Below, piece after piece: positions 39,355 through 52,862 of a stretch of 64,000 nt of DNA; position 1 is the first letter of the stretch, and the number at the start of each line of letters is the position of its first letter. The notes beneath the pieces are model-generated. The model did not search any database. It was not told where the DNA came from and worked only from the letters and a program-made list of their open reading frames with translations. Origin of the DNA: Sulfitobacter faviae (GTDB lineage: Bacteria > Pseudomonadota > Alphaproteobacteria > Rhodobacterales > Rhodobacteraceae); NCBI RefSeq assembly GCF_029870955.1, contig NZ_PGFQ01000001.1, positions 682,001-746,000 of the forward strand, written 5' to 3'. The translations under genes and the position numbers were made by a program.

Positions 39355-41597
39355 TCAATCGCTGCCGTGCACTGCGATTTGGGCGTCGGGTGCGGGGCGG
39401 AACTTCCACTGCACCGCAAAGATCACCGCCGCCACTGCGATGCCGATGAGGTCGGTCATCAGACCACCCGCGATCATGCAAAGCGCCGCGAGGATCAAGC
39501 CCAGCCGGATGAACCAAGCCGCCCCGCTGCCCGCGAACCAGCCCTGCATGCCCGAAGACAGCAGATAGACCCCGAAGATTGCCGTGACACCGGCGCGGAT
39601 CACCTCGAACCACGTGCCGTCCATCAGGATCGCGCCGTTGTAGAAGAACATGAAGGGCACGATGAAGGCCGAGATGCCGATCTTGAAGGAGGCCACCGAA
39701 GTCTCCATCGGGTTGGCGCCCGAAATCCCCGCCGCGGCATAGCTCGCCAGCGCCACGGGGGGCGTGATGGCCGAGACGACGGCGAAGTAGAAGACAAAGA
39801 AATGCGCCGTCAGCAGCGGAATGCCCAGTTGCACCAGACCGGGCGCCACGACCGAAGCCGCCACCGCATAGGCCGCCGTGGTGGGCATGCCCATGCCGAG
39901 CAGAATGGCGATACACATGGCAAAGAACAGGGCGAGGAATTGGCTCGCCTCTGCCAGCCCCAGCAGCACGGAAGAGAAACGCGCGCCGACACCGGTCAGG
40001 CTGATGACACCCACGATGATGCCCGCACAGGCGCAGACCGCGATGATCTGGATCGACATGATCCCGGCCAGGTCAAAGGCTTTGACGATGCTGCGCGGCC
40101 CCATGCGGAAGGGCGTGAACCACGACACCACCGCCGCTGCCGCCGTCGCCAGCGTGCCCGCGCGGATGATCGAATAGCCCATGAACAGCGCATAGATCAG
40201 GATGATGATCGGGATGAACAGAAACACCCGGCGCAGCATGTCCTTGAGCTTGGGCAGTTCCTCGGAACGCATCCCGCGCATGCCCAGCTTGGCCGCTTCG
40301 AAATCCACCATGAAGTAGATCGACACGAAGTAGAGCACCGCCGGGATGATCGCCGCCACGGCGATATCGGTGTAGGGGATGCCCGTGATCTCGGCCATGA
40401 TGAAGGCACCCGCCCCCATGATCGGCGGCATGATCTGCCCCCCGGTCGAGGCGGCGGCTTCGACCGCGCCTGCGGTCCGGGCCGGGTAGCCCACCTTTTT
40501 CATCAGCGGAATGGTCAGCGAGCCTGTCGCCACCACATTGCCCGCCGAGGTGCCATTGATCATCCCCATAAGACCCGAGGCAAAGATCGCGACCTTGGCT
40601 GGCCCCCGCGCGAGCGGCCCGCCGCGGCAAAGGCGAAGTTGACGAAATAGTCCCCCACTTTCGATGCCTGAAGGAAGGCCGCGAAGATGATGAAGAGGAT
40701 GATATAGGTCGATGACACCGCCGTGGTCGGCCCCAGAATGCCCGCATCGGTGTAGACTTGGCTAAAGAAGCGGGTCCACTGGATGTTGGGCGCGTTCAGG
40801 AAGCCCGGCAGCATGTCCCCGACGAAGACATAGACCAGAAAGACACCCGAGATCACGATGAGCGCAAGCCCCGCCACGCGGCGCGTCAGCTCCATGATCA
40901 GCGCGGTGCCTGCAACTGCGGCGATAGAGATGCCGATGGGCGCAAAGGGCGTGCCCGTCGAGTTGCGCATCAAGGTGCCGTACATGGTGATCAGGTAAAT
41001 CGCCACGGCCACCCCGCAGATGGACAGCAACAGGTCCGCAGGCGAAACCTGCCCCCGCTCGCGTCCGCGCAGCCAACCCACGACGATGCCGATGGCCGTC
41101 GCCGCCACCAGCGGCAGGCCATAGTGATAGATTTCAAGGGTCTTGAACTCGGGGCTCATGCCGTTCCACTGGGTGCCGCCAGCGATCTGGCTGGCGATGC
41201 TCCAAGCGGTCCAGATCGAATAAAGCGCAGGGATCATCGCAGCCCATGCCACGAAATCCAGCGGATGACGGCCCTGCCCCTTGCCTTCATCCACAAAGGC
41301 GCGGGCGGAATAGAGGGTAAAGCCAAGGATCAACGCACCCGCGATGTGCACGATGCGGAAATTCCACGTCTCCATCGGGAAGGTCGGCAAAAGCGGGATG
41401 CGGATGCCGGTCAGCTCTCCGATCGACATGCCGTTGAGCGCCGCCATGTGAAAGAAGGCATAGATCGCCGACATGGCCGCAACGACCAGATAGGTCCGCC
41501 CGGTGAATATGCGGCGATTGCTTTCTACCGGTTCGTCATCGACCCCTTCGGCGACAATCGGGCCCTGCGGGTCGGCGGCGCTATGCTGGTCTGTCAT
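39355..41597 (-). CDS. TRAP transporter fused permease, TAXI type (reading frame interrupted)
   Basis: About 747 residues after adding one C in the run at 40603-40607. The N-terminal part (from MTDQHSAADPQGPIVAEG) carries the small DctQ-like four-helix unit and the C-terminal part the large DctM-like unit (GTSAGNVVATGSLTIPLMKK, GQIMPPIMGAGAFIMAEITG, GMPTTAAYAVAASV). Such 4TM/12TM fusions pair with TAXI binding proteins; one is encoded just upstream. It drives secondary import, usually of dicarboxylates or glutamate-like compounds, with a sodium or proton gradient. An AGGAAG ribosome site precedes the ATG at 41597. Confidence 0.88.
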
Positions 41598-41708
41598 GGA
41601 GGCTTCCTTTCCCGATATCTGCGCGGGATCTGTCCCGACAATCAGGCGGGATGATGGCAAGATGCCGCCCCGATTAGGGACGGCATGCAAGTTTGTCTAG
41701 GCGTTCGC

Positions 41709-42947: not shown

Positions 42948-43661
42948 TCAGAAGCTGTGCCAGACCCCGACTTTGACCTTGGTCACAGCGTTGGTGAATT
43001 CATGCGAAAGGCCCAGTTCCAGAAAGCTGTTTTCCGAGACCTTGATCACATGCGACGGCGCAAAGGCCAATGTCTCATCCCCGTCTGACGGGGCCGCGAA
43101 CTCCAGCTTGAAAATCGACAGATTGCCATTGTCATGGTTGATGCCGAAGCTGCTGTCGATCTTGCCCAGTGTTTCGCCGTCTTCGTAAATGGCAAAGGTG
43201 CTTTCCACCCCCAGCCAGCCGCTGCCCCAAGCCCCCGATACCGGACGCCCCCAAGACAGGCCGGGACGCAGGGCCGCCACCGCGCTGCCATCCCGTTCGG
43301 CCCAGCCAAGACCGACTTCGGCGGCGAAAACATTGTCCCCACCCGAGAGTTCAAGCGGATAGCGCAGAAAGGCGATGGCGCTGACTTGCCCCGCGCTTTG
43401 GCTCTTGCCGATGTCGAGGCCGAAGGTCAGTTTCTCGGTCACCCCGTATTCGTAGTAAAACGCGCCGAAATCGCCAAAGTCGGGGCCATCTGCGGTGGTC
43501 TCATAGGACAGGGAGACAAAGCTTTTGTCTTCGCCCCGCGGCCAAGCCGCCGATGCCACATCACTTGCCGGGAGGGCGATGGTACCGATGGCCGAGAAGA
43601 CAACAAGCCGGGGCAAGAACCGCCGCGGGAGGTCAGAAGGCATTTTCGCTGTTTTGCGCAT
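42948..43661 (-). CDS. Putative outer-membrane beta-barrel protein ending the polysaccharide operon
   Basis: A 237-residue protein with a signal peptide (LPRLVVFSAIGTIALPASDV), then alternating strands rich in Gly and aromatics (GAFYYEYGVTEKLTFGLDIG, GSGWLGVESTFAIYED) and a C-terminal aromatic residue (VGVWHSF), the usual signature for insertion by the BAM machinery. No family name is recognised. It is 47 bases after the single-domain response regulator and is the last gene of the eight-gene run, so it might help pass the polymer or sense the surface; this is inference. Confidence 0.6.
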   Translation of the reverse strand: MRKTAKMPSDLPRRFLPRLVVFSAIGTIALPASDVASAAWPRGEDKSFVSLSYETTADGPDFGDFGAFYYEYGVTEKLTFGLDIGKSQSAGQVSAIAFLRYPLELSGGDNVFAAEVGLGWAERDGSAVAALRPGLSWGRPVSGAWGSGWLGVESTFAIYEDGETLGKIDSSFGINHDNGNLSIFKLEFAAPSDGDETLAFAPSHVIKVSENSFLELGLSHEFTNAVTKVKVGVWHSF

Positions 43662-43708
43662 GGTAAGTTCCGCGTGTTCAGAGCCGCGAGAGGCTGAGGG
43701 ATGAGGTA

Positions 43709-44067
43709 TTAAACGATCGACCGAATGAAATCCGCGAGCTTCAGCGGTTTGAACGGTTTGTGCAGAATGTGGTCTGCCCCGAGGTCGCGAAACTTCCTCT
43801 CCGACTCGGGCGAGGTTTTGGCGGTGCACATGACGATCTTCGTGTCGTCCAAATTCGCATTGGCCCGCGCACAGCGCAGTACCTCCATACCATCGGGGGC
43901 GGCATCATCACATCCAGCATGATTACGTCAAAAGACTGCCTCTCCATCGTGGCAATCGCGTCGAGCCCGGTCCCCGCGAAGGTCGGTTCAATGTCATCCT
44001 CGGTCATGATCGCAAACTCGATCAACTCGCGGATGTCATCTTCGTCATCGACGAACAACACTCTCAT
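43709..44067 (-). CDS. Single-domain response regulator (reading frame interrupted)
   Basis: A CheY-like receiver of 119 residues. The acidic pair Asp7-Asp8 and the phosphorylation site Asp52 (VIMLDVMMPPPDG after repair) are present, with the conserved Thr/Ser in MCTAKT and Lys in LHKPFKP. The frame breaks in the G run at 43895-43899; one added base restores GMEVLRCARANANLDDTKIV and a stop at 43709. With no output domain, it is suited to carry phosphate to the Hpt protein of the same operon. It overlaps the kinase gene by four bases. Confidence 0.85.
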
Positions 44068-46067
44068 ACCGATGCCCCCTGCTTGGGCGCGGCGCCTGTA
44101 TCCCGGGCGAAACGCACATAGAACGTGGTGCCGGGGTTCTCATCGCCGTCCTCTTCCGAGCGTGTCTCAAAGCTCACATCGCCACCTTGTCGCAACACCA
44201 ACTCCCGCGTGATGGCCAGCCCCAGCCCCGTCCCATTCGCTTGGTTTTCGCGAGAGTGCACAGGGTCAGCGAACCTTTTGAACATACGATCATGGGCGGC
44301 TCTTGGGATGCCCGGCCCCGCATCGCAGACATAGAACGTGACCCATTGGTCGTCCACCTCGGCACCGATTTTTACCGTACCGCCGCGCGGGGTATATTTT
44401 ACCGCGTTGGAAATGAGGTTGGAGAAGATTTGCTGCATGCGCACGGTATCGACCCGCACATAGGCCTCCTGCGCCGCATCGGGGCCTCTGTGAATGTCGA
44501 GTTGCACGTCGCGGTTCACCCCATAGCCGGTGTTGGCCGCGATGGCTTCCGACAGCACTTCCGACACCGCGACCCGCTCGGTCTGGATGCTAAGTTGGCG
44601 CTGGTCGATCGCCTGAAGGGTCAAGATATCGTTGACCAGTACCAACAGCCGGTCGGCATTTCGGGTGGCCATCGACAACAGCTTGCCCGCGTTCTTTGGC
44701 ATGCTGTCGCCAAAGCGGTCATGCAGGATTTCGAGCGATCCGGCCAGCGAGGTGAGCGGCGTGCGCAGTTCGTGATTGACCGAGGTGACAAAGGCCGTGC
44801 GCGCCGCCACCAGACGCTCTTCGGCAGAGATGTCCTGAAGCACGTTATAGGCGATGTAATCCCCATGCAGATGCAGCTTCATCACCCGGCATTGCACCGC
44901 CACATTCTCGTTCTCGGCGGTGGTGATCTGAATGCGGTGAACGGCCACGTCTTCGTCCATCTGCGAAAAGGGCGGGACCATCCCGCGGAGCTTTTGCACG
45001 GCTTCGATGTCTGAGGACACACCCATCAACGCACGCGCCTTGCGGTTGGAGCGGTGCAGCTTGTTGTTGTCGTTATAGACGATCAGCCCGTCGCCGACAT
45101 TCTCAAAGATCGCGTCAAATTCGCTCTGCGCCACGCGGATCCGTTCGCGGTGCCGTTCGGAAGTGCGCAGGGCCTGCGCCAATTGGGTCGACTGCCGCCG
45201 CGCGCGGATCGCCGCATTGATCACCGTCAGGAACAGGATCGTGGCAAGCCCCACGAAAACCAATGTGCGCTGCCAGTAATTTTGCAGCACCGCCCGTTTG
45301 CTGCGCGTCACGTCGATATAGAGGTCCAGCGCCGGAATCTCCTTCCGGGCGCGGAACACGGGCGTATCGGGGTCGCGCGGAGGCCGCCCCGAAACAAAGG
45401 CCCGCTCTCCGTTGGAGGTTACCACCTCGACATACATGTCCTGTTGCATCCCATCTATCGCCAGCAATTGCGAGTAGTAATCCTCGCCCAGCGAAGAGGC
45501 CAAGACCCCGCGTGACCGGCCATCCATCCCGATCAAGGGCCATGCAATCGGGGTCAGACGCCGCCCCGTGGCCCGCGACACGATGGGCACCCCGACCGTG
45601 TATTCATCCACATCAAGGCCAATCGCAGCCTGAAAATAGGCCCGGTCCCCAAGGTACTGCCCCATCAGGGGTTTGGCCGTGGCCCAAAGCACGATCCCAT
45701 CGGCGCCGATCAGCACAAGCGCATCGACCTGCTCGGTCTCCTGCACGGCGGCATTCATCAGATCGCCGTATTGCGCCTCAAACTGCGCGGGGTCGCTCAG
45801 GCGCGCGGTCGACAGCTCATCAATCAGCCCCCACATCCGTACATTCGCAACCGAAAGTGAGGCATCGACCGCCTGCTCGTAAAGCTCCGCGAAATGCTCA
45901 AGCTCCACCTCGGCCCGGGTTGTGGCGCGGTTGTAGTCGGACCAGGTCAGAGCCGCGAGCCCGACGAAATAGGTCACAACGACCGTTGCGATCAGCCCCC
46001 AGAAGAGCGTTTGCGCGCGCGAAGAGGGTTCCGCATCGGCTTTGTTGGTGGGCTCAGTGCTGACCAT
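44064..46067 (-). CDS. Membrane sensor histidine kinase with extracytoplasmic sensing domain
   Basis: A 667-residue kinase. In order: membrane helix at about 20-42, periplasmic Cache-like sensor at 45-265 (DRAYFQAAIGLDVDEYTVGV), second helix at 268-288, PAS domain at about 312-415, dimerisation helix with His432 in NHELRTPLTSLAGSL, and an ATPase domain with the N box NLISNAVKYTP, G1 DAGPGIP and G2 GTGLGLAI. It has no fused receiver, which fits the separate receivers and Hpt in the operon. It starts one base after the REC-GGDEF gene ends. Confidence 0.93.
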   Translation of the reverse strand: MVSTEPTNKADAEPSSRAQTLFWGLIATVVVTYFVGLAALTWSDYNRATTRAEVELEHFAELYEQAVDASLSVANVRMWGLIDELSTARLSDPAQFEAQYGDLMNAAVQETEQVDALVLIGADGIVLWATAKPLMGQYLGDRAYFQAAIGLDVDEYTVGVPIVSRATGRRLTPIAWPLIGMDGRSRGVLASSLGEDYYSQLLAIDGMQQDMYVEVVTSNGERAFVSGRPPRDPDTPVFRARKEIPALDLYIDVTRSKRAVLQNYWQRTLVFVGLATILFLTVINAAIRARRQSTQLAQALRTSERHRERIRVAQSEFDAIFENVGDGLIVYNDNNKLHRSNRKARALMGVSSDIEAVQKLRGMVPPFSQMDEDVAVHRIQITTAENENVAVQCRVMKLHLHGDYIAYNVLQDISAEERLVAARTAFVTSVNHELRTPLTSLAGSLEILHDRFGDSMPKNAGKLLSMATRNADRLLVLVNDILTLQAIDQRQLSIQTERVAVSEVLSEAIAANTGYGVNRDVQLDIHRGPDAAQEAYVRVDTVRMQQIFSNLISNAVKYTPRGGTVKIGAEVDDQWVTFYVCDAGPGIPRAAHDRMFKRFADPVHSRENQANGTGLGLAITRELVLRQGGDVSFETRSEEDGDENPGTTFYVRFARDTGAAPKQGASV

Positions 46068-46068
46068 T

Positions 46069-47019
46069 CTAGGCTTGGTGTCCTATGTCATTGGCGGCAA
46101 GGCAGATGCTGCCCGGCGCGCTTGTTATTCCAGCACTTTCGACGCCTTGAATGCCCCGCGCAAGCGAGGTGGCGACAGCCGCGTCCGAGGGCGGCACGAC
46201 ACAGGCGCTGACGCTCAAGGGCCGCGAGGTCCAGCCTTCTTTCACGGTGGCCGAGGCCTCAGCCACGGCTGAGATAAACTGCTGCGCCCGCGCTTCAAGC
46301 TGGGCGCGATCCGCCTGGAGCGCGCCATAGACGAAAAGGTCATCCTCCCAATGGGCGAACCCGTCTTGCGCGGGAATTTCGACCTTGCCGAAAAGCCCGG
46401 CCACGAGGCGCTGAAGCTCTTGCCGCTGCGCGCGCGCCGCATCGGATTGATCACGGTCGCCATCAATACGAAAGACGATCAGGCCGAGGTCTTTTTGCAT
46501 CGCGGGCGACAGCGACATCAGATGCCCCTGAAACCCGGATTTGCTGCCCAAAAGGCTGGGCACCGTGGCCTCTGACACGCTCGGCGCGGCACGGCGGCGG
46601 GCGCCGCGGTTTTCGCCCGAACGGCGGCGGTCCAACTCGGATTTCAGCCGCAGGCAACTGCGCATACGGGCCTGAAGCTCAATCCGGTTGAAGGGTTTCG
46701 TGACATAGTCGTTGGCCCCCGCCATGAAGGCTTCGGAGAGAGACCCCATGTCTGTTCGGCTGGTCAGCATAATGATCGGCACATCGCTCCATCTGTCCAA
46801 GGCACGGATACGGGCGCAAAGCTCGATACCATCAATATCGGGCATCATTATGTCCATCAGGATCAGGTCCGCCGTGGCCTCATCGCTTTCGATCGCGTCG
46901 AGTGCACTGCGCGGATCGATGAAACTGACGACATCGTCAAAGCCAAGCTCAGAAAGCGTCGCGCTGATGAAATCCTGCGCGATATCCGAATCGTCGACTG
47001 CGATAATTCGTGGGCTCAT
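46069..47019 (-). CDS. Response regulator with degenerate GGDEF-like output domain
   Basis: A 316-residue protein starting at MSPRIIAVDDSDIAQ (47019), four bases after the preceding gene ends. The receiver (1-125) has Asp9-Asp10, phospho-acceptor Asp56 (LILMDIMMPD), Thr86 and Lys108. After a basic linker the C-terminal domain (about 165-310) follows the GGDEF fold (GLIVFRIDGDRDQSDAARAQ), but the catalytic loop reads HWEDDLFV instead of a GGDEF motif, so it probably does not make c-di-GMP. It may bind a nucleotide or partner protein and control the neighbouring glycosyltransferase. Confidence 0.8.
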   Translation of the reverse strand: MSPRIIAVDDSDIAQDFISATLSELGFDDVVSFIDPRSALDAIESDEATADLILMDIMMPDIDGIELCARIRALDRWSDVPIIMLTSRTDMGSLSEAFMAGANDYVTKPFNRIELQARMRSCLRLKSELDRRRSGENRGARRRAAPSVSEATVPSLLGSKSGFQGHLMSLSPAMQKDLGLIVFRIDGDRDQSDAARAQRQELQRLVAGLFGKVEIPAQDGFAHWEDDLFVYGALQADRAQLEARAQQFISAVAEASATVKEGWTSRPLSVSACVVPPSDAAVATSLARGIQGVESAGITSAPGSICLAANDIGHQA

Positions 47020-47023
47020 GATT

Positions 47024-48436
47024 TTAATTCCACTCGTTAACTCTTTCAAAAACACGCCATCGGCTGTTTTGAAAAACCTCCTCATACCCGGCATCTGCGA
47101 TTGCTTCAGCTGCGGGAACCTGCGCAGAATTCTGTCTGCTGTGGCCTGCCCTTCCGCCTGTTGCGGGACCACGATGTACCTTGTGCGCGGCACGCCCCCT
47201 CAAGCGCCCAGTCGTAGGCAGGCTCACCGGCGATCACCAGCCGGTCGATATTCCCCAGACCGACGACGATCTCGGGGTTTCTCTCAACATCTACCATAAT
47301 ATCAGACTTGTCGCGCAAGAATGAAACGACCTCTCGCGCGGGCGGGACGCTGCGTTTTCCGCCCCGAGCATCGCGTTGCTCCAAGCGCGGGTCTCGTCAT
47401 GGGCGACATGGCGCATCACCAACGCCGAGGTCAGCAGCGACAGTGCCAACAGCGCGATGGCAATCGGCTCGCGCAGGGACAGGTTCGGCCAAAAGCGGAT
47501 CGCGGCGACCAAGACCCCCAGCATGGGCGCCAGCGCCATGGCCGGGTCGCCTTCGACATGGAAAAAGACGTTGAGCGTATAGCCGCCCAGCACCGCCCCG
47601 ACCGCTGCCAAGAGCGGCATGAAGAGACGCGGCACCATGATATTGCGCAGGATCGCGATAAGGGCCGCCGGGCCCAGCCCGGCCAGAATGACCAGATGCT
47701 GCCGCAAGGTCAGCGGCGTGGCACTTTCCGACAAAAGCGGGATAAGGCGGCTGTCGAAGATCATGCTGACGAACATCAGCGCCCCCACGGCGGCGGCCAC
47801 GGGATAGAACATCGCCACCAGATAGCCCGTCGAGGAGACCGCGATCATGCTGGGCCGTGCCGCGACGATCATGAAAGGCATCGCCCCGAGGCAAAGCATC
47901 AGGCCATAGCTGTCCGACAGGGCCACCACCAAAAGCCCCACGGCCACTTTCATCATATCCGGCGCGTTGCCCGTGAGGCGCAGATTGACGATCCCGCGTG
48001 CGAAAAGCCATGTGCCCAAGATGCAAAACATCGTCTCTGGCCCATCGGCCAAGGCGCGCAGGAAAAACGGGTTCAGCGCCAAGAGCAGCACCACCAGCGC
48101 CGAGGTCACGCCCGAAAACCCGCCCGTGTCGCGCAGGTTGAGGAACCACAGGACCAGCAGCCCCGCCCCCACCAGCGCGGAAAGCACGAAAGGCACCGGC
48201 ACCTGCGTATCGGGCAAGACCGCCTGCCCCAAAAGCGACAGCGCATAGGGCACGGGCGGGTAGAAAGCATCGCTTGCCTTGAACTGCGCTGGCCCCTCGA
48301 TCTGCACAATCGACTTGGCCCAAAGGTCGGTCACATCCATCGACAAAAAGCCATGCGCCTCAGTCCAGCCGAGGGTGAGCAAAAGCAGCAACGCCAGCGC
48401 GACAAAGCCGAAAGACCATGAGGCGGCGCGGATCAT
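47024..48436 (-). CDS. Multi-spanning membrane protein, GT-C glycosyltransferase-like (three frame interruptions)
   Basis: The N-terminal 350 residues contain about ten hydrophobic helices and a short Asp-bearing first loop (FLSMDVTDLWAKSIVQIEG), resembling PMT/ArnT-type glycosyltransferases. The C-terminal soluble part is spread over three frames; adding one base each in the runs at 47362-47365, 47195-47199 and 47114-47116 gives PPAREVVSFLRDKSDIMVD, LEGGVPRTRYIVVPQQAEGQ and a natural end YEEVFQNSRWRVFERVNEWN. The repaired protein has 471 residues. It overlaps the GT2 gene by four bases and probably adds or processes sugars at the membrane; substrate unknown. Confidence 0.65.
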
Positions 48437-50325
48437 TGCGCGGCCTCCGTCGCTTCGGCACTGGCTTCGGCCACCTCATTGGCGGTGTGTTTGGACAGGC
48501 CGTGCTGGGTCTTTTCCCAATAGAACGGGTTAAAGATCAACTGCGACAGCGCCTTGTAAGAGGCCACGGTCATCAGCACCCAATAGCCCACCACGGTGAT
48601 CCCCCAAGGCGCCAGATCGGTCCACCTGCGCCGGAAGGGTGCGACCATCGTGAGATAGATCAGCAGCCCATTGCCCGCCAAGAGGTTCACCAACGACAGA
48701 TAGAGCACCGGCAGCGGGAAATAGGGGGTGATCACCTCGGTCCCGAAGATCAGCCAGATGGCGAAGATCGACCAAAAGACCGGGTTCAACAGGCCCGAGA
48801 GCACCGTGCCCCCGATGAAGAAGACAAAGCCAAAGACGCCCGCCGCCCCGACCGATTGCCACAGGTGAATGGGTCTGCGGCTGTGGACGAGGAAAGTTTG
48901 CATATAGCCCTTGATCCAGCGCGAGCGCTGGCGCACCCAGTTCGGGATCGAGACATTGGCCTCTTCAAAGGTCGTGGAATCGATGACGCCCACGCGGTAG
49001 CCCTTCTGCGTCAGACGAATGCCCAGATCGGCGTCCTCGGTCACGTTGAAGGGATCCCATGCGTTCAACTCGCGCAGCACGTCCATGCGGAAGTGGTTCG
49101 AAGTGCCGCCCAGCGGGATCGGCACGCCCAAACGCTCCAACCCCGGCAGCATCAGGTCGAACCACAGCGAATAGTCCAGCGTGAACATCCGCGTCAGCCA
49201 GTTCTCCCGCGCGTTGTAGTAGTTCAAACGGCATTGGATGCAGGCGGTATTGGGCGCGGATTGGTTGAAGGCGGCGATGACCTTTTTCAACTGATCCGGT
49301 TCGGGCTTATCCTCGGCGTCGAAAATCACGAGGAAATCACCCTGCGCATAGCGCAGCGCAAAATTGCAGGCCTTGGGTTTGGTCTGCGGGTGGGAGGCCG
49401 GGACGCGGATGATCTCGAACACGCCTTCAAGGTCGAGCTTGCGCGCCGCGTCGATGGTCTCGTGATCACCCTCTTCCAGCACGATCTTGATGTCGAGCTT
49501 GGCCAGCGGATAGTCGAGGTTGCGCAGCGCTTGGGCAAGGATCGGCAGCACCTCGGGCTCGCGGAACATCGGCACCAGCACGGTATAGATCGGCAGGTCT
49601 TCGTCGCGCAGCAGCGATGCCTCGGCCGCGATGGCCCGCGATGAGGTTTCCTGCGCAGCACCGCCGAGCCAGACCAGCAGCGCTTTGAACAGGAAGTTGC
49701 CGGTGTAGAACACCGTCAGCAGGACGTTCAGCACGATCAGCGTGGCTACGGGCGCAAAGGCCAGACCCAGCAGCAGCGCCGAGATCAGGAGGTAGATCAC
49801 CAAGATTTGCGGCGGGGTCACGACGTTCTGCGCCGACATATCGGGGTCAAGCTCGGCCAGCGCAAAGACCGCCTCATGCGAATGTTTCTCGCGGAAGGCG
49901 CGTTGCAACTGCCATGACACATCGAAATGCGAGGCCACGACGATGGTCACGCCAGAGCCATAGACCTCGCGGATATGCAGCAGCGTGCGCGGGCCGGGGC
50001 GCGAGGTGGCCACCGTCAGCGTGCCATCCTCTGCCCGGCCAATCGGCACCGTCATGAATTGGTTCATCACCACCGGATCATACTGGCGGATCAGATCGTC
50101 ATCGGCGCGGTCCTCGATCAGATCGACCAGCGCGAGCCCGTGGTAAAAGGCGATCTCGCGGTAGAGTGTCTGCGTGGTCAGCCAGCGCCGCGACAGAAGA
50201 ACCTTGACCAGAGAGACGTTCCACTCCTCGGCCAGTTCCTCTGCCGCGTCGAGCTGTTCCGCCGTCAGCGCGCCACGGTCAAGCAGCAGCGAACCAATGG
50301 CTTCGCTTTCGGCATCCAACGGCAC
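48433..50325 (-). CDS. Family 2 glycosyltransferase, cellulose-synthase-like, with N-terminal GspE-N/MshEN-like domain
   Basis: A 630-residue processive synthase. Residues 5-150 resemble the GspE N-terminal/MshEN domain (IGSLLLDRGALTAEQLDAAE). Two helices (about 173-220) precede the catalytic domain at 245-475 with VLVPMFREPEVLPILAQALR, D336-A-E-D339, T429-E-D431 and Q466-R-S-R-W470, the motifs of cellulose- and hyaluronan-type synthases. Further helices form the polymer channel. Unlike BcsA it has no C-terminal PilZ domain. MshEN domains can bind c-di-GMP, but the usual Arg of the first motif is not evident here. A BcsB-like partner lies upstream. Confidence 0.85.
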   Translation of the reverse strand: MPLDAESEAIGSLLLDRGALTAEQLDAAEELAEEWNVSLVKVLLSRRWLTTQTLYREIAFYHGLALVDLIEDRADDDLIRQYDPVVMNQFMTVPIGRAEDGTLTVATSRPGPRTLLHIREVYGSGVTIVVASHFDVSWQLQRAFREKHSHEAVFALAELDPDMSAQNVVTPPQILVIYLLISALLLGLAFAPVATLIVLNVLLTVFYTGNFLFKALLVWLGGAAQETSSRAIAAEASLLRDEDLPIYTVLVPMFREPEVLPILAQALRNLDYPLAKLDIKIVLEEGDHETIDAARKLDLEGVFEIIRVPASHPQTKPKACNFALRYAQGDFLVIFDAEDKPEPDQLKKVIAAFNQSAPNTACIQCRLNYYNARENWLTRMFTLDYSLWFDLMLPGLERLGVPIPLGGTSNHFRMDVLRELNAWDPFNVTEDADLGIRLTQKGYRVGVIDSTTFEEANVSIPNWVRQRSRWIKGYMQTFLVHSRRPIHLWQSVGAAGVFGFVFFIGGTVLSGLLNPVFWSIFAIWLIFGTEVITPYFPLPVLYLSLVNLLAGNGLLIYLTMVAPFRRRWTDLAPWGITVVGYWVLMTVASYKALSQLIFNPFYWEKTQHGLSKHTANEVAEASAEATEAAQ

Positions 50326-50331
50326 GGTGGC

Positions 50332-52274
50332 TTACGTCTCGTCTTTGCCGCGGCGGGCGCGGTAGACGCGCTGGAACACGATCAGCACAAGCAGCGTCAC
50401 CAGCACCCAGATGGCCCCCACGATCCAGGGTCGGTACTTGGCCAGCATCTGAGCAAGGCTGGTGCGGTCGGGGTAGACGACATCAACAAGCGGGCTGCGG
50501 TCGGTGGCGGTGGCAAGGATCACCCCCTCCTGCCCGATCAGCGCCAGATCGCCGCGGTCCAGCATCATGGGGCGTTCGGGCGTCAGCTCTGGTGCAGGGC
50601 CATTGCCCGGACGCAGCCACAGGCCACGGGTGTCGCCCCGGGTGACGATCTGCACCACGCCAAGCCGCGACAGGTCTTCGCCCGAATAGATCAGGTTATC
50701 TTGACGGTCGCGCACCTCAATCCGGCCCTGATCGAAGGTGATCAGCGGCTCTGCATCGCCGGGGTTCTGGTCAGAGATTACAAAGAAAGGCTCATCCCCC
50801 TCAAGCGCCTCGACCGAGGCGCGCGGCAGGATAGGCGCGCGGTCCGGGATCACACTGCCCGCGACACCTGCGAGCCACGGCAGGGTCTGCGCGAAATCAA
50901 GCGAAAGCGCGGGGTCGAGCACGACCTGAACGCCATCGGCGAATTCCTGTCGCAGGGTAAAGAAGTCCCGATCCTGCGCTGTGGAATCCGAAAGAAGCAG
51001 GGCGCTGCCGGGCAGAATTTGCGCCGGATAGCCCTGCGGTTTGAAACGACATTCGCCGCCCGAAGGCTGACGCTGGATCGACACCCGCAGCAGGTTGTCC
51101 CGGCCCAGCAGGCCGCTCGGGACCGAAAAGGTAAGCTGCTCGGGCTTGCCGCTGCCAAGCGGGCGGTTGCCCAACAGCGTGTCATTCAGAAAGACCGAGG
51201 CCGTCGCCCCCCGCCCTTCGGGGTCAAGCGCTGCGGCGACATGCAGGTTCACGCCAGACACGCCCTTGCCCGCCGGAAGGTCGGAGGATTGGAACGGCAC
51301 GAAGAAGTCTTCGGTCGAGACCACGGGACGCGGGGTGAGGTCGCCCTCCAGCGCCGACAGCGGCAAACGGTCGTCAAAACGGGCCGGTCCCCCTGCCACA
51401 TCGACCACGGTCGCGCCTTCGTTCGACAGGGCCGACCATTCCGAGACCAGTTGCCACAGCCCCACCTGCGGATCGCTGCCGCGCAGGTTCAAGACGGGCA
51501 GCCCGGCTTGATTGTCCACGGCCATCTCGCTCGCCACGCCCGAGGTGGTCACGTCCAGTTCGATGACCCCTTCGGCCCATGCACCCGATGTGCTGACCCC
51601 GTCGCCGCCAAAGGTCAGCCGCCCGGCCTCAGCGTCAAACAGCGCTGCGGCGCGGGTCGCAGCGGCCAAGGCCGCGAGGGAGTCGTTGCCCCCGATGGCC
51701 AGACGCGTATCCGCAGGGCGCAGCCCGGCGAATGCCGCCGATGTGTCGATCTCAGACGGGTCCAATTGCAAGGTCACGGAAGAAGCCGCCGTGATCTCAA
51801 GAAAATCCCCCGAGGCGCGTTCGTCCACGCAGACCCGATCGCTGAAAGCCCCGGAATAGGACAGGCCCACGGCGATAAACCCGCCCGACACGTCCTCGGG
51901 GCTAAGCGGGACCGGAACGCTCAGCCGCCCTGCCCCATCGGGCAACGCCTGCGAGGTCACCGGACGGCCCGCGACCGAAACCTGCAAATAGCGATCCACC
52001 TCGGTGGTGGAGGCATGTTCAAGCTCAAGCTGCAAACGGCCCGAACTCAGCGCGTCCGGGTTGGGCAGCGGAATATAGATCGTCGCATTGCCCGATAGCT
52101 GCCGGAAGGACAGACCGTTTTGAAAACCAAGCTCCGCCAGATCGAAGGTCCGCGCGATCAGCCCCTCTTGGACCTGCTCTGTGGGGGGGTCGCCGCATCC
52201 TCACCCGGGGCCGTTTGAGCGTGAACTTGAAACGGCGCCAGGGCCGCCAACAAACCGATTGCGGGATACTTCAT
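50332..52274 (-). CDS. BcsB-like periplasmic, membrane-anchored polysaccharide synthase subunit (reading frame interrupted)
   Basis: A 647-residue protein once one base is added in the seven-G run at 52183-52189. It begins with a signal peptide (KYPAIGLLAALAPFQVHAQT), continues with jelly-roll-like beta domains (IYIPLPNPDALSSGRLQLEL, SVFLNDTLLGNRPLGSG) and ends with one membrane helix (PWIVGAIWVLVTLLVLIVFQ) and a short basic tail. This is the layout of BcsB, the cellulose synthase partner that guides the polymer through the periplasm. It lies six bases before the GT2 gene. The break is probably a sequence error. Confidence 0.75.
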
Positions 52275-52286
52275 GGATAGGCTTTC

Positions 52287-52622
52287 TTAAATTTTTTCAG
52301 CGGCACTGCGGGCATCGGCCAGAGCCGTTTCAATTATACGAATGTCATCGGTCGACAAGGGCGCAGAGGATTCATCGGCATCTTCAGCCACGCGCAGCCC
52401 CTTGCGCAGGCGATCTTCGATCTCGGCATATTCCAGCATCGCGGCATTGCCAGCCAGATCGTGCAGCATGCGGTGGACCTTGCGCGCCTTGGTCTCGCGC
52501 GGGTCGGCGCCATCCGTCTCGCGCAGCGCATCGGCCACGGCCTGCAACCGCTCCGGCATCCCTTCGATGAAGCGCTTTCGCGTCGCGGCGACGCGTTGTT
52601 CATATGTCTCGGTAGGTGCCAC
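52287..52622 (-). CDS. Histidine-containing phosphotransfer (Hpt) protein
   Basis: A 111-residue, all-helical protein with the Hpt core HRMLHDLAGNAAMLEYAEIE; His54 is the likely phosphorylated residue, in a variant (HDLAGNA) of the usual HxLKGxA motif. Hpt proteins relay phosphate between two receivers. It is the first gene of the eight-gene run and lies 12 bases before the BcsB-like gene, so a free Hpt, two receivers and a kinase are made together. Confidence 0.8.
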   Translation of the reverse strand: MAPTETYEQRVAATRKRFIEGMPERLQAVADALRETDGADPRETKARKVHRMLHDLAGNAAMLEYAEIEDRLRKGLRVAEDADESSAPLSTDDIRIIETALADARSAAEKI

Positions 52623-52828: not shown

Positions 52829-52862
52829 GGAAGACGGGCGCGACATGCCGCGCCCGCCTTCT
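52829..52862 (-). terminator. Hairpin after the molybdenum hydroxylase operon
   Basis: CGGGCGCG and CGCGCCCG pair perfectly around a 6-base loop, extended by a GAAG/CTTC stem with one mismatch. It begins just after the large-subunit stop in the direction of transcription and is followed by a modestly T-rich stretch. Confidence 0.55.

Follow-up and report, generated by a model that had tools for sequence, protein, structure and literature searches.

An operon of eight genes was identified in the window, a 64,000-nucleotide stretch of the Sulfitobacter faviae genome (contig NZ_PGFQ01000001.1, positions 682,001 to 746,000; genome G000, 3.83 Mb in five contigs). All eight genes are located on the minus strand between window positions 52622 and 42948. 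Read from 52622, they encode a stand-alone histidine phosphotransfer protein (Hpt), a BcsB-like periplasmic subunit, a family 2 glycosyltransferase (GT2) synthase, a GT-C-like membrane protein, a response regulator with a receiver domain (REC) plus a pseudo-GGDEF tail (REC-tail), a membrane histidine kinase (HK), a single-domain REC and a putative outer-membrane barrel, respectively. The operon is a real, conserved variant of the synthase-dependent polysaccharide systems that was not found described in the open-licence literature. The folds of a cyclic di-GMP (c-di-GMP) receptor and of a cyclase are kept in the synthase and the REC-tail protein, the nucleotide sites of both are gone, and a conserved set of relay genes adjoins them; this combination is what makes the operon worth testing.

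Gene order and conservation of the operon

The junctions were read from the window sequence. Gaps of 12, 6, 1 and 47 bases separate Hpt from the BcsB-like gene, the BcsB-like gene from GT2, REC-tail from HK and the single REC from the barrel gene, respectively, and overlaps of 4 bases join GT2 to GT-C and HK to the single REC. The GT-C to REC-tail junction could not be measured in the window because the GT-C frame is broken there; the spacing is 4 bases in the nearest relatives. The eight leftward, closely packed genes of the preliminary description of this locus are borne out by the reading frames and the measured junctions, with the GT-C to REC-tail spacing taken from relatives only.

The orthologous operon is present in 5 of 35 same-genus genomes (G003, G018, G024, G026 and G030), with a synthase identity of 85-98%. 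An alignment of the BcsB-like protein matched 6 of 295 sampled family genomes, namely the window genome, four other operon carriers and G084. The match in G084 is weak (27.4 bits), no operon gene was found there, and G084 was excluded from the relatives. Carriers of the operon include S. dubius, Sulfitobacter sp. EAC16, S. undariae, Pseudooceanicola batsensis, Primorskyibacter flagellatus, Citreicella sp. C3M06, Yoonia ponticola, Palleronia pelagia and an uncultured Rhodobacteraceae (six named genera in all). The carriers G072, G146, G165 and G330 represent four further genus labels within the family sample.

After merging of two duplicate pairs (L035 with L042 and L038 with L048), 16 distinct relatives remained. 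The order BcsB-GT2-GTC-REC-tail-HK-REC is identical in all 16, which rules out chance adjacency of the genes and shows that the gene order reported for the window is conserved in other Rhodobacteraceae. Fifteen of the 16 have Hpt, the contig of S. undariae ending at that place, and it is the first operon gene in 15/15 relatives with sequence there. With tblastn, the barrel gene was detected in 11 of the 16. The 4-base overlap of GT2 and GT-C occurs in 17 of 18 loci (the exception, G026, carries an insertion), as does that of HK and REC (the overlap is 1 in L045); some large junction values among the 18 loci reflect uncertain gene starts. The eight-gene operon is real.

GT2 synthase and its MshEN domain

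The GT2 gene (48433 to 50325) encodes a protein of 630 amino acids with no internal stop. The protein matches the GT2 families of Pfam, and its DAED, TED and QRSRW motifs are invariant in the alignment. An MshEN domain is located at the N-terminus (PF05157, E 1.2e-10; residues 62-149, positions 49879 to 50142). MshEN domains bind c-di-GMP via two 24-residue motifs, in which R9, Q32, R38, Q61 and glycines are the key residues (PMC5013675). These motifs would be expected at positions 50152 to 50298 of the window, and the key residues are lost there and altered across the operon clade in the alignment. The relaxed motif given in that paper was found in 0 of 19 operon-clade rows (17 distinct genomes); at least one was present in 20 of 21 rows of other synthases, and two in 14 of 21. 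The curated NCBIfam model of the c-di-GMP-binding MshEN domain, NF053729 (cut-off 38 bits), gave 24.4 bits for the window synthase and 20.8, 19.4, 28.2, 31.5 and 20.8 bits for five other members of the clade, all six below the cut-off. The model was passed by the synthases of the loci L090 (44.5 bits) and L092 (47.0 bits), by that of G044 (51.6 bits) and by a paralogue in the window genome.

In a midpoint-rooted FastTree tree of 40 synthases, from which L035, L039 and L048 were left out, the support was 1.000 for the operon clade and 0.998 for a sister clade of L090-L092, and the two clades were joined at 0.966. The sisters L090-L092 retain both c-di-GMP motifs. No such motif was detected by regular expression in L093 and L095-L097, which implies more than one loss. 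In G044 the regular expression finds no motif although the curated model is passed, and the motif counts therefore understate binding in distant relatives. By regular expression alone the direction of the change is uncertain; a 53-residue site is more likely to have been lost repeatedly than regained.

The preliminary description referred to a cellulose-synthase-like machine. A processive GT2 with a BcsB-family subunit is indeed shared with the cellulose synthase BcsAB, whereas the MshEN-GT2 protein lies far below the cut-off of the cellulose synthase model CelA (TIGR03030, 52.5 against 699 bits), and a plain cellulose operon is ruled out by this score. No PilZ domain was found among the Pfam matches of the eight operon proteins, as had been stated; the MshEN domain of the GT2, itself a c-di-GMP receptor fold, had been overlooked. 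The NfrB equivalog NF008411 scored 31.6 bits against a cut-off of 1170.

Several other synthases were observed. The paralogue in the window genome is a second MshEN-GT2 synthase (G000:C1:2480042-2481835; L041 9959-11902) that is 34% identical and keeps the motif (43.4 bits). Most same-genus genomes have similar paralogue-like matches, which span most of the length at about 30-36% identity. In G044 (L040 9756-12917), the synthase that passes the c-di-GMP model is 41% identical and is followed by two REC-type open reading frames (ORFs), another pairing of receivers with a synthase of this family. The synthases of L095, L096 and L097 share 48-53% identity with GT2 within the matched region and have no BcsB match nearby.

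REC-pseudo-GGDEF response regulator

The REC-tail gene (46069 to 47019) encodes a protein of 316 amino acids. Its REC domain matches Pfam with 92.2 bits and is intact: D56 and K108 are present in 82 of 82 aligned rows, and D9 and D10 in 81. The 82 rows are the window protein and 81 hits longer than 285 amino acids among P0050-P0133; hits of 285 amino acids or fewer were omitted, and the edge of the family was set at P0133 by judgement. The tail aligns with GGDEF in hhalign at a probability of 96.9, and the REC-tail of L091 exceeds the PF00990 cut-off (28.2 against 23.8). The active-site motif GG[DE][DE]F is present in 0 of the 82 rows, including P0075, for which a GGDEF match is listed in Pfam; the window protein has a degenerate loop, HWEDDLF, at positions 46333 to 46353. 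The degenerate GGDEF domain proposed in the preliminary description is confirmed by these three results.

A structure model of the REC-tail protein built with ten sequences (predicted local distance difference test, pLDDT, 75.7; predicted template modelling score, pTM, 0.52) has a hairpin at the GGDEF position. The model aligns along WspR (3bre, 291 residues, root-mean-square deviation 26.9) and PleD, and a whole-protein structure search was filled by REC chains. With deviations of 19-27 in this search, the assignment of the tail depends mainly on hhalign and Pfam.

At the RxxD I-site, Arg is present in 5 and Asp in 53 of the 82 rows. This bears on the explanation that c-di-GMP control persists through non-canonical binding of the dinucleotide by the altered MshEN domain, either alone or complexed with the pseudo-GGDEF protein, the part of the relay being limited to tuning. 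Pfam still recognises MshEN in the GT2, the NF053729 scores vary from 19.4 to 31.5 bits within the operon clade, and degenerate GGDEF domains can act as c-di-GMP receptors, as in BcsE and PelD (PMC7439463). Binding in BcsE and PelD is through the RxxD I-site, however, whose Arg is mostly missing here. The MshEN residues that are lost are also those shown to matter, and a Xanthomonas GspE with similar changes is said to have lost binding (PMC5013675). Persistent c-di-GMP control is thus considered improbable. More telling than the features stressed in the preliminary description is the loss of the MshEN motif beside a candidate pseudo-GGDEF output.

Sister modules

The sisters L090-L092 are derived from other families of the class, and their GT2 proteins are 62% identical to that of the operon (49% for L093). 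BcsB, GT2 and GTC genes occur together in all four sisters (L090-L093), and a REC-tail gene in three of the four. In the 20 kb fetched around each locus, no Hpt or kinase orthologue was found beside L090, L091 and L093, and no Hpt match beside the synthase genes of L092, where a different kinase with a LuxR-type regulator is located. The presence of REC-tail beside the synthase in three sisters without an orthologous Hpt points to REC-tail as the output. The synthase core looks older, with Hpt, HK and the single REC as probable additions in Rhodobacteraceae.

Two further ORFs were noted by eye. The ORF downstream of BcsB, GT2 and GTC in L093 looks barrel-like, and an ORF beside L091 (4312-5730) reads like a mannose-1-phosphate guanylyltransferase that was not seen beside L090.

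Candidate phosphorelay proteins

The HK gene (44064 to 46067) encodes a membrane histidine kinase with a dCache-like sensor domain (residues 51-221), a PAS-like domain, HisKA (His432) and HATPase_c. All 13 members scanned match each of the families dCache_1, PAS_8, HisKA and HATPase_c at E <= 0.05. The dCache_1 matches (best 5.2e-13) fit the extracytoplasmic signal that had been proposed, although the window copy itself is below the dCache_1 cut-off. The Hpt gene (52287 to 52622) encodes a protein of 111 amino acids that matches PF01627 with 27.2 bits (cut-off 24.6), with the conserved His54 at about positions 52461-52463; the Hpt family matches 15 of 15 members scanned. The phospho-acceptor His is present in 19/19 rows of HK and in 17/17 rows of Hpt, counts that include two duplicated genomes, and both His50 and His54 of Hpt are invariant in 15. 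The single REC (43709 to 44067) is one of two REC domains matched by Pfam in the operon; its frame is interrupted near 43.9 kb in the window, and it was judged from the open copies of relatives, in which the Asp and Lys are conserved.

A kinase, a receiver, an Hpt and a terminal receiver are thus all present with their phospho-acceptor residues, and these are the parts of a His-Asp-His-Asp phosphorelay. The statement that a kinase, two receivers and one Hpt are encoded with the synthase holds in the relatives as well (Hpt in 15/16), and a four-step relay fits the parts. The dCache HK is predicted to sense an extracytoplasmic ligand and to phosphorylate the single REC; HK and this REC, whose genes overlap, would in effect be a split hybrid kinase. 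Phosphate would then pass from the single REC to Hpt and from Hpt to the REC of the REC-tail protein. This order is proposed because the HK and REC genes overlap and because REC-tail is the steadiest neighbour of the synthase.

Nothing in the sequence data fixes the order of transfer, and a plain two-component system would suit them too: HK would phosphorylate one or both receivers directly, Hpt would be a branch, a sink or the partner of another kinase, and the output would lie elsewhere, for example in transcription. The LuxR-type regulator beside the kinase of L092 and a LuxR-type gene upstream of Hpt in three Sulfitobacter genomes are consistent with such an arrangement. Against it, Hpt keeps its place as the first operon gene, the whole window genome contains no more than three Hpt matches including this one, and Pfam recognises no DNA-binding domain in either receiver protein. 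A plain two-component system is therefore regarded as unlikely.

BcsB-like, GT-C-like and putative barrel proteins

The BcsB-like gene (50332 to 52274) has a frame broken near the N-terminus in the window. All 13 orthologues match PF03170 (BcsB) at E <= 0.05 (32.3 bits for the first member, cut-off 21), so that the proposed BcsB-like identity is borne out through the orthologues; the open piece of the window alone scores 18.5 bits. Neither the BcsB-like nor the GT-C alignment, used as a search profile, matched any PDB sequence.

The first open piece of the GT-C-like gene is located at positions 47291 to 48436. No Pfam family matched the protein, and its GT-C-like character is supported by the structure model of an intact orthologue, which has the GT-C membrane fold and matches the GT-C enzymes Pmt4 and ArnT. 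PIG-U, EmbB and similar proteins share the GT-C fold. Scoring of 7,994 candidates gave 49 protein clusters of GT-C homologues; those with names are from Rhodobacterales, and some UniRef names read RgtA/B/C/D-like.

The last gene (42948 to 43661) encodes a protein of 237 amino acids without a match to any Pfam family. The outer-membrane barrel of the preliminary description is plausible only, on the basis of an N-terminal hydrophobic stretch and a C-terminal Phe.

Proposed mechanism and comparison with known systems

The operon would encode a synthase-dependent exopolysaccharide system of Rhodobacteraceae. Together with the BcsB-like subunit, GT2 is predicted to polymerise and extrude a glycan; periplasmic-side transfer of a lipid-linked sugar is probably the task of the GT-C protein, and the small barrel may serve as the exit of the glycan. 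Control by c-di-GMP would not operate through any canonical site, with the MshEN motif of the synthase and the neighbouring GGDEF both defunct. The REC-tail protein would be the output of the relay and would act post-translationally, most likely by docking on the MshEN-GT2 protein. The chances that the phosphorelay controls the synthase through the REC-tail protein are judged to be about even. Docking of REC-tail on the MshEN domain itself is a more specific proposal and a rather doubtful one. It is put forward only tentatively that the machine has left c-di-GMP altogether, MshEN and REC-GGDEF both being pseudo-domains and the messenger step having become a protein contact gated by a four-step dCache relay.

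Post-translational control of synthase-dependent polysaccharide pathways frequently involves c-di-GMP (PMC12802240). Contact switching of a synthase by a phosphorylated REC-tail protein is reasonable from the studied cases, none of which is identical to this system. In Myxococcus xanthus, the phosphorylated response regulator EpsW activates the transferase EpsZ by contact, post-translationally; EpsW is a single-domain REC, EpsZ is a phosphoglycosyl transferase of a Wzx/Wzy pathway, and the case involves no pseudo-GGDEF, Hpt or synthase (PMC12802240). The NfrBA-YbcH system (NGR) of E. coli also has a GT2 with DxD/TED/QxxRW joined to MshEN and an outer-membrane partner (PMC8669469, PMC8669472), as well as a synthase-associated GGDEF protein, DgcJ, which binds NfrB (PMC8669469). 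The MshEN domain of NfrB is C-terminal and binds c-di-GMP, and NfrB needs a catalytic DgcJ (PMC8669469), whereas the operon has an N-terminal MshEN domain with its motif lost and a GGDEF domain that lacks the active site. The operon additionally contains BcsB, GT-C, the kinase, REC and Hpt. BcsE and PelD resemble the REC-tail protein as catalytically dead GGDEF domains that serve a synthase, in BcsE behind a REC fold; the REC of BcsE is degenerate and its I-site binds c-di-GMP (PMC7439463), whereas REC-tail has an intact REC and has mostly lost the I-site Arg. No description of this gene set was found in open-licence full texts, and the earlier statement that no described system has exactly this set was upheld to that extent.

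Several observations weigh against the proposed mechanism. A catalytically dead DgcJ failed to work with NfrB, and the contact was judged to be a scaffold (PMC8669469), which argues against contact alone. The MshEN domain of L093 fails NF053729 (24.3 bits) although no REC-tail, HK or Hpt is present in its fetched 20 kb, so that loss of the motif does not require the relay. The sister REC-tails look degenerate already (by eye) while their synthases keep the motif, and the two losses were therefore not simultaneous. The dCache domain of the window HK scores 14.5 bits against a cut-off of 45, and its PAS score is also below cut-off. The barrel was not found by tblastn in 5 of 16 relatives (L047, L049, L050, G072 and G165). 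Taken as a whole, the preliminary description was partly confirmed in its observations and partly supported in its interpretation.

With both folds kept, both nucleotide sites lost and a conserved relay alongside, the operon is a clean natural experiment on the rewiring of second-messenger control into control by protein contact. A surface glycan is also predicted for marine Sulfitobacter, Pseudooceanicola, Palleronia, Yoonia and related genera, and no description of it was found in the open-licence literature.

Broken reading frames

The frames of the BcsB-like, GT-C and single-REC genes are interrupted in the window assembly, which had been overlooked in the preliminary description. The GT-C frame breaks at about 47.3 and 47.2 kb, and its C-terminal part extends to about 47.02 kb in different frames. 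Relatives carry open copies of all three genes. Of 45 ORFs of at least 200 amino acids that were taken from G026 and mapped outside the operon, 9 map in more than one frame in the window genome; shadow ORFs were not removed from this test and one ORF lies at the window edge, and the test undercounts, the GT-C break having gone unflagged since tblastn bridged it. Because frame breaks are also seen outside the operon, indel errors in the assembly are their likely cause.

A decaying operon that is non-functional in the window strain was considered, since three of eight genes are broken in the window and a transposase gene interrupts GT2 in G026. The breaks are not specific to the operon, its remaining genes are open in the window, and other relatives carry open copies, so that decay is very improbable; strain-specific decay was rejected as the main story on the frame breaks elsewhere in the genome. 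The transposase-like gene in G026 is located at L039 10246-11274. Outside the operon, a transporter gene at window positions 39355-41690 lies in two frames and corresponds to one 746-amino-acid ORF in G030.

Upstream region

A terminator-like hairpin with a 14-pair stem (minus strand, 52830 to 52861) is located between the upstream oxidoreductase gene and Hpt. It is the longest of 13 such sites, and shuffled sequences give a mean of 10.2 sites, so the evidence for it is weak. In three Sulfitobacter loci, a LuxR-type regulator is found upstream of Hpt on the same strand (L035 2739-3536, L036 15574-16371 and L037 15440-16237), and that of L035 matches GerE with 49.3 bits. The window and G026 have the oxidoreductase gene in its place.

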